From: Actinocatenispora comari
GTDB taxonomy: Bacteria > Actinomycetota > Actinomycetes > Mycobacteriales > Micromonosporaceae
Length of the DNA: 59,169 bases
Direction of reading: 5' to 3'
Assembly (NCBI RefSeq): GCF_017312725.1
Contig: NZ_BOPO01000025.1
Coordinates: 1 to 59,169, forward strand
In this document: one piece after another, positions 48,579 to 57,796 of the stretch
Numbering within the stretch: the first letter of the stretch is position 1
Layout of the letters: each line of letters starts with the position of its first letter
Translations under genes and position numbers: made by a program
Notes under the pieces: model-generated
What the model saw: only the letters and a program-made list of their open reading frames with translations
Told to the model about the DNA's origin: nothing
Databases searched by the model: none

Positions 48579-48655
48579 GCGAGCGTCAGCGAGCGAACCA
48601 GGGGCACTGCGCGTGGTGCCTCATCGGGCTTCCGACGAAGGAGGAAGGCCGATGA
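48575..48655 (+). CDS. Micro-ORF 2, 26 residues, bridging permease and first ATPase genes
   Basis: The ATG overlaps the permease TGA (ATGA), and the TGA (48653-48655) overlaps the ATG of the ATPase gene. The peptide begins MSERQRANQGHCAWCLIG and ends PTKEEGR, with a CAWC pair. Its 5' part (gagcgagcgtcagcgagcga) resembles a repeat I recall as common in Micromonosporaceae genomes, so the bridge may derive from a mobile intergenic repeat. The Shine-Dalgarno AAGGAGGAA is again read as KEE. Confidence 0.55.
   Translation: MSERQRANQGHCAWCLIGLPTKEEGR
48622..48654 (+). promoter_or_regulatory. Second loop-Shine-Dalgarno hairpin, same geometry as at 46684
   Basis: Arms CATCGGGCTT (48622-48631) and AAGGCCGATG (48645-48654, one mismatch) enclose a 13-base loop ending in AAGGAGG; the ATG of the ATPase is in the stem. 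Length, arm size, loop size and Shine-Dalgarno position equal those of the hairpin at 46684-46716. Confidence 0.7.
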
Positions 48656-49638
48656 GCGTGTTGGAGATCGTCGACCTGCACGCGGTCGTGGCGACCGACG
48701 GCGGCGAGCTGCCGGTGGTACGGGGCATCTCGCTGTCCATCGACGCCGGCGAGATCGTCGGGCTGGTCGGCGAGTCCGGCAGCGGCAAGAGCTTCACCGC
48801 GCTGTCGGTACTCGGGCTGCTGCCCGACGGCGCCCGGGTGTCCGGTGGCCGGATCCTCGTCGACGGCGAGGATCTGCTGTCGCTGCGGGCGGCCGAGCGG
48901 CGGACCCGGCGCGGCGGCACGGTCGCGATGATCTACCAGGATCCGATGACCGCGCTGAACCCGCTGATGACGGTCGGCGCGCAGATCGCCGAGGGTCTGC
49001 GGGCGCACGGTGTCGACGGCGCCGAGGCGAAGAAGCGCACCCTGGCGGCGATCGAGGAGGTCGGGCTGCCCCGTCCGGAGCGGATCGCGCGCAGCTACCC
49101 GCACCGGCTCTCCGGCGGGCAGCGGCAGCGGGTCGTGATCGCGAGCGCGCTCGCCCTGCGCCCCAAGGTGCTCATCGCCGACGAGCCGACCACCGCGCTG
49201 GACGTGACCATCCAGCAGCAGATCCTCGCGCTGGTCGACGAGCTGCGGGTGGCGCACGACCTCGCCGTACTGTGGATCACGCACGATCTCGGTGTGGTGG
49301 CACGGATCGCGAACCGGGTCGCGGTGATGTACGCCGGGCGCATCGCCGAGGCGGCGCCCACCAGGAGCCTGTTCGCCGCGCCGCAGCACCCGTACTCGGC
49401 TGCGCTGCTCGCGTCGATCCCGTCGCCGACCGACACGGTACGCGGGCCGCTGCCGCAGATCGGTGGCGCGCCACCGGATCTGACCGCGCTGCCGCCGGGC
49501 TGCCCGTTCGAACCTCGCTGCGCGCAGCGCGAGCCCGGGTGCGCGGCGACCGAACCCGACCCGGTCCACCGCGGCGACGCCGACACCGCCTGCTTCGTAC
49601 CCCGAGAGCGCTGGACCACCGCGGAGGAGGCGGGATGA
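48652..49638 (+). CDS. Peptide ABC transporter ATP-binding protein (DppD type)
   Basis: 328 aa. Walker A GESGSGKS, Q-loop IYQDPMTALNPLM, signature LSGGQRQR, Walker B VLIADEPTTALD and H-loop ITHDLGV are all intact. The C-terminal oligopeptide-transporter extension with Cys-rich PPGCPFEPRCAQREPGC is present and may carry an iron-sulfur or zinc site as in other DppD proteins. The ATG overlaps the micro-ORF 2 stop. The final TAEEAG and TGA are part of the same Shine-Dalgarno/ATGA cassette repeated downstream. Confidence 0.95.
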   Translation: MSVLEIVDLHAVVATDGGELPVVRGISLSIDAGEIVGLVGESGSGKSFTALSVLGLLPDGARVSGGRILVDGEDLLSLRAAERRTRRGGTVAMIYQDPMTALNPLMTVGAQIAEGLRAHGVDGAEAKKRTLAAIEEVGLPRPERIARSYPHRLSGGQRQRVVIASALALRPKVLIADEPTTALDVTIQQQILALVDELRVAHDLAVLWITHDLGVVARIANRVAVMYAGRIAEAAPTRSLFAAPQHPYSAALLASIPSPTDTVRGPLPQIGGAPPDLTALPPGCPFEPRCAQREPGCAATEPDPVHRGDADTACFVPRERWTTAEEAG

Positions 49639-49676
49639 CCGACGACGCGATCCCTCCCGCAGAGGAGGCGGAATGA
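49635..49676 (+). CDS. Micro-ORF 3a, MTDDAIPPAEEAE
   Basis: Thirteen codons. ATG overlaps the TGA of the DppD-type gene; TGA overlaps the ATG of micro-ORF 3b. The GAGGAGG near its end serves as Shine-Dalgarno for the next start and is read as EE. Confidence 0.55.
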   Translation: MTDDAIPPAEEAE

Positions 49677-49714
49677 CCGACGACGCGATCCCTCCCGCGG
49701 AGGAGGCGGCATGA
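49673..49714 (+). CDS. Micro-ORF 3b, MTDDAIPPAEEAA
   Basis: Second copy in the 38-bp array, last residue Ala instead of Glu. Overlaps its neighbours by four bases at each end. Confidence 0.55.
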   Translation: MTDDAIPPAEEAA

Positions 49715-49752
49715 CCGACGACGCGATCCCTCCCGCGGAGGAGGCGGAATGA
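49711..49752 (+). CDS. Micro-ORF 3c, MTDDAIPPAEEAE
   Basis: Third copy; its TGA (49750-49752) overlaps the ATG of the DppF-type gene. Confidence 0.55.
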   Translation: MTDDAIPPAEEAE

Positions 49753-50690
49753 TCGAGGTGACGGAGGCGGCCCGGCACTACCGGACCTCCGACGGCGTGG
49801 TGCGGGCGGTCGACGGGGTCAGCTTCGTGGTGGCCGAGGGCGAGACGCTGGGGCTGGTCGGCGAGTCGGGCTGCGGCAAGTCGACCACCGCCAAGCTGCT
49901 GGTCGCGCTGGAGCGGCCGACCGCCGGCACGATCCTGGTGGACGGCATCGACGTGGCCACCGCCCGCGGTGCCGAACTGCGGCGGCTGCGCCGGACCATC
50001 CAGCTGGTGTTCCAGGACCCGTACGCGTCGCTGAACCCGCGCCGCCGGATCGCCGCCACCCTCGCCGAGGTACTGGCGGTGCACGACCTGGCCCGCGGCG
50101 CCGCGGCGACCCGCCGGGTCGGCGAGCTGCTGGAGATGGTGGGGCTGCCGGCGTCGGTCGGCGAGAGGTACCCGCACCAGCTGTCCGGCGGGCAGCGGCA
50201 GCGGGTCGGCATCGCCCGTGCCCTCGCGGTCGAACCGAGGGTACTGGTGCTGGACGAGCCGGTGTCCGCGCTCGACGTGTCGGTCCGGGCGGAGGTGATG
50301 AACCTGCTCGTGTCGCTGCGCGCCTCGCTCGGCCTGACCTACCTGTTCATCTCGCACGACCTGGGCATGGTGCGGCACCTGTGCGACCGGATCGCGGTGA
50401 TGTACCTGGGCAAGGTGGTGGAGGCGGGCGGCTGGCGGCAGGTGTCCGACGACCCGCTGCACCCCTACACCCGGTCGCTGCATGACGCGGTACCGGTGGC
50501 CGATCCGACCGTCGAGTCGGGCCGCTCCGGCCGTACCCTCACCGGCGAGGTGCCGGACCCGGCCGCGCCGCCGCCCGGCTGCCGGTTCCACCCGCGCTGC
50601 CCGATCGCCGAGGACCGCTGCCGGACCACCGAACCGCCGCTGCTCGCGCAGCCGGACGGCGACCGCCTCGTCGCCTGCCACCTGGTCTGA
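49749..50690 (+). CDS. Peptide ABC transporter ATP-binding protein (DppF type)
   Basis: 313 aa. Walker A GESGCGKST, Q-loop VFQDPYASLNPRRR, signature LSGGQRQRVGIARAL, Walker B VLVLDEPVSALDVS, H-loop ISHDLGM, and the C-terminal oligopeptide extension PPPGCRFHPRCPIAEDRC. It forms the ATPase heterodimer with the DppD-type protein. Its start is fed by the third 38-bp micro-ORF with GGAGGAGGCGG upstream. Last gene of the operon, followed by a strong terminator. Confidence 0.95.
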   Translation: MIEVTEAARHYRTSDGVVRAVDGVSFVVAEGETLGLVGESGCGKSTTAKLLVALERPTAGTILVDGIDVATARGAELRRLRRTIQLVFQDPYASLNPRRRIAATLAEVLAVHDLARGAAATRRVGELLEMVGLPASVGERYPHQLSGGQRQRVGIARALAVEPRVLVLDEPVSALDVSVRAEVMNLLVSLRASLGLTYLFISHDLGMVRHLCDRIAVMYLGKVVEAGGWRQVSDDPLHPYTRSLHDAVPVADPTVESGRSGRTLTGEVPDPAAPPPGCRFHPRCPIAEDRCRTTEPPLLAQPDGDRLVACHLV

Positions 50691-57108: not shown

Positions 57109-57150
57109 CCGCGCGACCGCCTGCCCCGAGCGCCGACGCCACGCCGTACA

Positions 57151-57265
57151 GCCGACGCGGTGCCGGTCAGCGGACGCGGTGCCGGTCAGCCGACGCCATG
57201 CCGGTCGACCCGACGCCGCGCCGGTCAGCCCACGCCATGCCGGCCGACCGACGCCGCGCCGGTCA
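57151..57265. repeat. 19-bp tandem repeat reaching into the SMI1/KNR4-type gene
   Basis: Six copies of a 19-bp unit (gccgacgcggtgccggtca; one copy is 20 bp). The last copy contributes the TGA stop (57263-57265) of the minus-strand gene. The array fills most of the convergent gap after the VC0807-type gene. Confidence 0.88.
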
Positions 57266-57796
57266 GCCGACCAGGTCGGACCAGAACGGTACGGTCGGGC
57301 GCGCGCCGGCCACCATCTCGGCCCGGTGCGCGTCGCCGAACTCGGCCCGCAGGTAGCGGGGCAGGTCGGCGCCGTAGACGATGATGTCGGTCTGGTGCAC
57401 CGACAGCACCGGGTGCCCGGCCGGCCCGCCGACCCCCGGCAGGTACCGGTGCCCGTAGACCGGCACCATCGGCGGCACGGTGGCGAGCTCGCGGCGCGCG
57501 GTCGCCAGCGCGTCCGCGACCCCGGACGGCCGGTCGCCCCAGACCGGGTACCAGAAGCCGTTGTGCTCGACGTCGAACAGCACGCCGTCCACCGGCCCGG
57601 CCAGCGCGGCGGCGAGCTCGTCGGCGGAACCGTTGCGCCAGTCCGGGAAGCCGCGCCCGACCGGGAGTGCCGCGGCGAGCAGGGCACGGTGGTCGGCGGC
57701 GAACCGGAAGCCGAACCGTGCCTCGACCGCCGACAGCTCCGCCTCGGTCAGCCCCGGTGCCAGCGGCGCCGGCAACAGCGTCACCGGATCGGTCAT
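57263..57796 (-). CDS. SMI1/KNR4 (SUKH)-type protein
   Basis: 177 aa. The N-terminal LTEAELSAVEARFGFRFAADHRALLAAALPVGRGFPDWR and later FDVEHNGFWYPVWGDRP, VPVYGHRYLPG and VLSVHQTDIIVYGADL fit the SUKH superfamily. Many SUKH proteins are immunity proteins against polymorphic toxins; actinobacterial solitary members have no known role, and no toxin is nearby. The ATG overlaps the stop of the methyltransferase gene (ATGA) with GGGGGAGGAG upstream. Confidence 0.83.
   Translation of the reverse strand: MTDPVTLLPAPLAPGLTEAELSAVEARFGFRFAADHRALLAAALPVGRGFPDWRNGSADELAAALAGPVDGVLFDVEHNGFWYPVWGDRPSGVADALATARRELATVPPMVPVYGHRYLPGVGGPAGHPVLSVHQTDIIVYGADLPRYLRAEFGDAHRAEMVAGARPTVPFWSDLVG

Follow-up and report, generated by a model that had tools for sequence, protein, structure and literature searches.

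The analysed window, a stretch of 59,169 nucleotides from the genome of Actinocatenispora comari, carries a short tandem array between two genes for oligopeptide ABC transporter ATPases, here called dppD and dppF. Two permease ORFs (BPD_transp_1) precede this gene pair. The start of dppD at 48652 was our choice, and an in-frame GTG is also present at 48613. The features of the locus are listed below, with the partial unit scored against a model of the repeat unit, R1.

48652 to 49638, + strand: upstream gene, DppD/OppD-type oligopeptide/dipeptide ABC ATPase (dppD), Pfam ABC_tran and oligo_HPY
49619 to 49636, + strand: partial unit formed by the 3'-terminal dppD codons (TTAEEAG), 12.9 bits, E 0.005, model positions 28-45
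49635 to 49672, + strand: unit 1, mini-ORF 49635-49676 (MTDDAIPPAEEAE), SD-like AGAGGAGG at 49661-49668
49673 to 49710, + strand: unit 2, mini-ORF 49673-49714 (MTDDAIPPAEEAA), SD-like GGAGGAGG at 49699-49706
49711 to 49748, + strand: unit 3, mini-ORF 49711-49752 (MTDDAIPPAEEAE), SD-like GGAGGAGG at 49737-49744
49749 to 50690, + strand: downstream gene, DppF/OppF-type oligopeptide/dipeptide ABC ATPase (dppF), 313 aa, Pfam ABC_tran and oligo_HPY

Direct reading of the sequence placed ATGs at 49635, 49673, 49711 and 49749, a spacing of exactly 38 bases. Three 38-bp units, each a 13-codon ORF, fill positions 49635-49748. The TGA of dppD (49636-49638) overlaps the start of the first mini-ORF, the TGA of every mini-ORF begins at the second base of the following ATG, and the ATG of dppF (49749) overlaps the stop of the third mini-ORF. 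Each unit contains an SD-like (G/A)GAGGAGG that ends 4 bases 5' of the next ATG. The spacing, the overlaps and the assignment of the last ATG to a DppF-type gene had all been proposed in the first-pass annotation, and they were confirmed by these coordinates and by the presence of both Pfam domains in the two proteins. It had also placed GGAGGAGGCGG in every unit; an SD-like motif is present in all of them, but unit 1 has AGAGGAGGCGG. The three repeats that it counted stand as three full units, although the array comes to about 3.5 units because the last codons of dppD match the 3' part of a unit.

Tandem Repeats Finder gave the array a period of 38, 3.6 copies, 94% matches and a score of 248, which was the highest among its 71 rows for the window. 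No stretch in the rest of the window exceeded 10.9 bits against the unit model when the whole window was searched. A 19-bp tandem array of 7.3 copies was observed at 57132-57271; it was also scored with a 38-bp period (scores 159 and 178), and no match to R1 was found in it.

The same junction was compared in a genus sample of four species with genomes of 7.0-8.0 Mb, comprising the genome of the window (G000) and the other three species of the genus (G001, G002 and G003). The downstream protein was 97% identical in G002, 95% in G003 and 85% in G001. The number of units following dppD was three in G000, two in G002 and zero in both G003 and G001. The two units in G002 have boundaries identical to those in the window, and a further full unit forms the tail of dppD. 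In G003 and G001, the dppD stop directly overlaps the dppF ATG without any units. Four base differences separate the window unit from that of G002, and all of them change an amino acid (I/L, P/S, A/P and E/K).

Copies of the unit were found elsewhere in these genomes. A 22-base core, taken without the RTGA ends (R = A or G) and allowing up to 2 mismatches, matched 16, 6, 14 and 14 times in G000, G001, G002 and G003, respectively, while the reversed core used as a control matched 3, 2, 4 and 2 times. Since the control still gave 11 matches, against 50 for the core, some of the weaker core matches are chance. At 0-1 mismatch, 12 of the 15 genus loci end at (A/G)TGA, the exceptions being G001:C9, G002:1973253 and G002:5925748. 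For R1, we picked 26 of the 41 units listed, with the RTGA ends included; some of the 15 units left out were likely chance matches and others were near-identical neighbors. With this model at E<1e-3, at least 23 units were found at no fewer than 10 loci in G000, at least 19 at 11 or more loci in G002, at least 11 at 5 or more in G003 and at least 8 at 7 or more in G001. The genus consensus is approximately RTGAGTACCGCCGACGTGATCnnTCCCGCGGAGGCGGC, followed by the next RTGA. The window units are of a TDDA..AEEA subtype, which is also found at loci C39, C90 and C130. Judged by sequence, the window array is not private to its operon, and its unit is a member of a dispersed family. The full unit in the dppD tail of G002 had suggested that the array was a mere duplication of that tail, an idea that the dispersed copies overturned as an account of where the sequence came from.

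The positions of the units relative to genes were recorded in a census that pooled loci L111-L401 with the window, keeping only nhmmer hits that scored 15 bits or more and counting identical 70-base contexts once. Gene frames were called from GC phase and not from annotation. The census contained 148 arrays, 45 of which have more than one unit; its loci were best matches or picked by us, and orthologous junctions were counted apart, so these counts are not independent. A strict junction was defined as an array with the upstream TGA in the 5' RTGA of the unit and a downstream gene start at the 3' end of the unit. Strict junctions made up 68 of the 148 arrays, a share inflated by choice because the analyst-picked R1 includes the RTGA ends. 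At these junctions, mini-ORFs of the same direction overlap their neighbors with a spacing of -4 nt, and 77 of the 96 mini-ORFs read have 13 codons. With RTGA or TGATG accepted as the overlap, 64 of the 68 have an unbroken chain of mini-ORFs up to the downstream start, which agrees with the earlier proposal that a 38-bp (3n+2) period preserves the stop/start relay. The chain also holds at L361 and L392, even though the reading frame of the junction unit is a different one there. The remaining 80 arrays consisted of 19 antisense and 7 sense arrays in coding sequence, 15 that have the upstream stop but for which the 3' end yielded no start, 12 with a downstream start but a different upstream arrangement and 27 that were mixed or unclear.

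The repeat period differed between junctions and genes. For the multi-unit arrays at strict junctions (n = 23), the main period was 38 in 18, 39 in four and 41 in one, whereas all six multi-unit arrays inside genes had a 39-bp period. A main period of the form 3n+2 was, therefore, found in 19/23 strict-junction arrays vs 0/6 in-gene arrays (Fisher p = 0.0004). The four 39-bp arrays at strict junctions (L147, L217, L274 and L326) each read as one longer ORF, which stops at the downstream start. Sixteen further multi-unit arrays fell in neither class and had periods of 38 (7), 39 (8-9) and 42 (1). Of the seven sense copies inside genes, five use the ADxLxPAEA frame. Antisense copies have the same upstream phase in 18/19 cases, but that phase is held downstream in only 12/19, and so frame keeping for antisense copies is shown only in part. 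The mean entropy at codon positions 1, 2 and 3 was 0.62, 0.55 and 0.50; third positions are not the most variable, and no peptide-level constraint is visible in this measure. The frame and the stop/start overlap seem to be preserved rather than the peptide.

Several sites were found both with and without units. A clean 36-bp in-frame antisense copy lies in an aminotransferase-like gene of G002, where it reads ATASAGGSTSAG inside the host protein, and is absent in G000, G003 and G001; we take this gene, recognized by eye, to be HisC-like. At another junction, between genes that by eye are presumably cysH- and cbiX-like, G003 has three units exactly at the GTGA that forms a plain start/stop overlap in G000 and G002, and G001 has ATGA there with no unit. 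This site is precise on the upstream side only, and the first codons of the downstream gene in G003 differ from those in the other species. Copy number at matching junctions also differed between species, each represented by one genome: 4/2/1 (L273/L282/L292), 2/4 (L280/L287) and 3/2 (L278/L291). Decayed junction units were observed at L218 (G002:C1:5925748), whose upstream flank matches those of L278 (G000, three intact units) and L291 (G003, two intact units).

To look beyond the genus, R1 was run on 397 genomes of the order, and 34 had matches at E<=1e-4. Family f15 supplied 23 of them, the family of the window five (G000 included), f8 three, and f12, f14 and f16 a single genome each. Twelve of the 34 genomes have one match each, several of them weak. 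No fewer than three other families of the order contain copies; at this threshold, there were at least 15 matches in the f12 genome (G047) and 9 in the f14 genome (G049). At a loose threshold of E<=0.1, these two genomes gave 53 and 14 matches, respectively, and most other genomes gave 0-13. The f12 genome, which is 3.0 Mb and 86% complete, is unusually unit-rich, and its junctions (e.g. L254, L257 and L263) often hold three or four tandem copies. In a sample of the phylum at E<=1e-5, 2 of 396 genomes matched, namely that of the window and one with a single weak match; this sample shows a low background and not the full range because evidently none of the rich genomes were drawn. An 85-base query had no site covering 80% of its length in 50,697 phage and 72,556 plasmid records. 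A phage or plasmid origin was rejected, as the best E was only 0.2 for phages (4 Arthrobacter phage records) and 4e-3 for plasmids (6 plasmid records in all).

Contrary to the first-pass annotation, which knew of no described system of this kind, mycobacterial interspersed repetitive units (MIRUs; Supply et al. 1997 as cited in PMC12548453) are a precedent. In the available excerpts of that source, MIRUs are described as repeats that seem to be mobile, enter at start codons, are coupled with -4 nt spacing and probably affect the target gene very little (PMC12548453). Excerpts of other papers describe them as tandem and variable in number (PMC2734929, PMC2453075), with unit lengths of 77 and 53 bp (PMC4213456, PMC2453075), a quoted range of 40-100 bp (PMC2734929) and, for the MIRUs of senX3-regX3, a distribution restricted to M. 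leprae and the M. tuberculosis complex (PMC4213456). As far as these excerpts go, the 38-bp family resembles MIRUs in being short, dispersed and apparently mobile, with start-codon insertion, a coupled ORF and variable tandem copies; by our own arithmetic, 77 and 53 are also both 3n+2, as is 38. It differs in length, since 38 bp is outside the quoted range (typically 53 or 77 bp), in its presence in other genomes of the order and in its additional occurrence within coding sequence, with 39-bp periods when multiple. By analogy, the 38-bp family works like MIRUs, but it is set apart from them by descriptions and not by sequence comparison. Among the papers listed in searches of the open-licence PMC literature, no 38-bp family of such a kind outside mycobacteria was found.

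Other relay arrays were reached through a survey of SD-ATGA pairs, which had a match in 174 of 354 genomes of the family; most among the matches listed looked like chance, and the survey cannot measure phase preference. At L173 (G123:C20, minus strand), in another genus, three 35-bp mini-ORFs (MSGLFTPDGSRS, MSGLFPPDGSRS) form the same type of relay between two ORFs, and no further locus of this array was found in its genome, G123. At L175, L176 and L186, a junction has been duplicated once, over 32, 44 and 41 bp, respectively; each of these lengths is 3n+2, and each duplication forms one relay mini-ORF. These local duplications, including L173, share with the window array the 3n+2 period and mini-ORFs that overlap their neighbors. 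L175 and L186, however, fuse the ends of two neighboring genes, whereas the window unit is neither built of an upstream tail and a downstream head nor confined to one locus. A different small dispersed repeat with an SD and ATG (CGATCGCTTGCGGAGnCGTAnATG) was observed in genus g12 (L414-L422) and is tandem at 35 bp in G171. Nine matches to it, including three within a single array, came from 4 of the 22 genomes, the reversed control gave none, and the ends of this repeat are often damaged. Rickettsia palindromic elements are small repeats that are likewise tolerated in frame inside genes; unlike the 38-bp units, they are longer and palindromic and are not known to be start/stop relays.

The window array is very likely one of the places occupied by a short (~38 bp) interspersed repeat, dispersed and non-autonomous, whose mode of action resembles that of a MIRU. 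What can be read from the sequences is the sense-direction position at start/stop overlaps, the tandem copies, the frame rule in multi-copy arrays, the empty sites and the copy-number differences between species. At junctions, each unit spans one RTGA stop/start overlap to the next and contains the 13-codon ORF and an SD-like sequence. A ribosome that has terminated on the upstream gene would reinitiate on one mini-ORF after another and lastly at the start of the downstream gene, with the SD of each unit helping the restarts along the chain. Because ribosomes would restart through the chain in this way, inserting 38 x n bases would be nearly silent for both neighbors, and the element would persist by being harmless and not through any activity of the peptide. 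A dose effect of copy number, or promoter activity, is possible.

That the array is a cassette under selection, with the two ATPases held at a ratio that depends on unit number, seems unlikely to us. Copy number does differ between species at the dpp junction (3/2/0/0) and at others, and in excerpts of one study, a tandem-repeat tract upstream of fpg1 in M. tuberculosis was reported to go with mRNA level, a modest link that was not equally evident in all strains shown (PMC2734929). However, like units precede many different genes and sit inside genes, two species have no units at this junction and, with an SD-like sequence in each unit, extra units need not much change the yield. The tunable cassette proposed in the first-pass annotation keeps its relay anatomy and its variable copy number but not its specificity for this gene pair. 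Against its own idea, that annotation had set a relative with the dppD-dppF pair, no repeat and equal DppF expression; the first half of this description, the pair without a repeat, fits G003 and G001.

It is less likely again that the conserved thing is an RNA structure, a promoter or a protein-binding site, with the ORFs being incidental. Conservation is found at the nucleotide level, and the spacer of senX3-regX3 that bears MIRUs was reported to have promoter activity in the excerpts available (PMC4213456). The array fold, though, is no more stable than shuffled sequences (z = +1.21; 176 of 200 at least as stable), the CCTCC half of a possible hairpin is not conserved, and the period changes from junctions to genes in the way expected of reading frames. 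A hairpin that sequesters the SD was rejected as unsupported by the same z of +1.21 and by the variable positions in the CCTCC half.

Plain tandem duplication of a gene junction, with no mobile element involved, is a slightly poorer candidate still. It fits the L175 and L186 mini-ORFs, in which the head of the downstream gene is joined to the tail of the upstream gene, the G123 array with no second locus in its genome and the first unit of G002, which is the dppD tail itself. The mini-peptide of the window, on the other hand, lacks the downstream N-terminus, homologous units are scattered over many unrelated loci, other families have them too, and there are empty sites. Local duplication may explain multiplication at a locus but not arrival there, and we take it that the window unit first belonged to the dispersed family and then multiplied locally. 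Selection for the 13-residue peptide as a product is highly improbable: a consensus near ADV(I/L)xPAEAA does recur across loci and is the frame of most sense in-gene copies (5/7), but some junction copies are read in another frame, variability is not highest at third codon positions and every difference between the window and G002 units is amino-acid-changing.

The MIRU-like repeat may have a wider setting, which we put forward tentatively and with rather more doubt than conviction. It would be an order-wide family of mobile modules of ~36-41 bp, separate in sequence from MIRUs and adapted to reading frames. At junctions, the modules would have 3n+2 lengths, their own SD and RTGA ends; in genes, they would come in multiples of 3, tending to read as ADxLxPAEA-like linkers in sense and ASAGxSTSA-like linkers in antisense, the latter from one case. 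Their copy number may tune downstream genes. Our confidence in this order-wide reading was set slightly lower since the phase expected downstream was seen in no more than 12 of the 19 antisense copies.

Annotators should be wary of 13-codon ORFs and of gene starts of the MST type at such junctions, which may belong to the repeat. The family comprises dozens of natural insertions, and for some of these a close relative has the empty site; two questions thereby become testable: whether termination-reinitiation steps carry ribosomes across several mini-ORFs and whether repeat number alters the dose of the next gene. These data suggest that translation-coupled interspersed repeats are not just a mycobacterial oddity. 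If the order-wide reading is true, few known mobile elements would be as small as these units, which would be silent as ribosomes walk through them.
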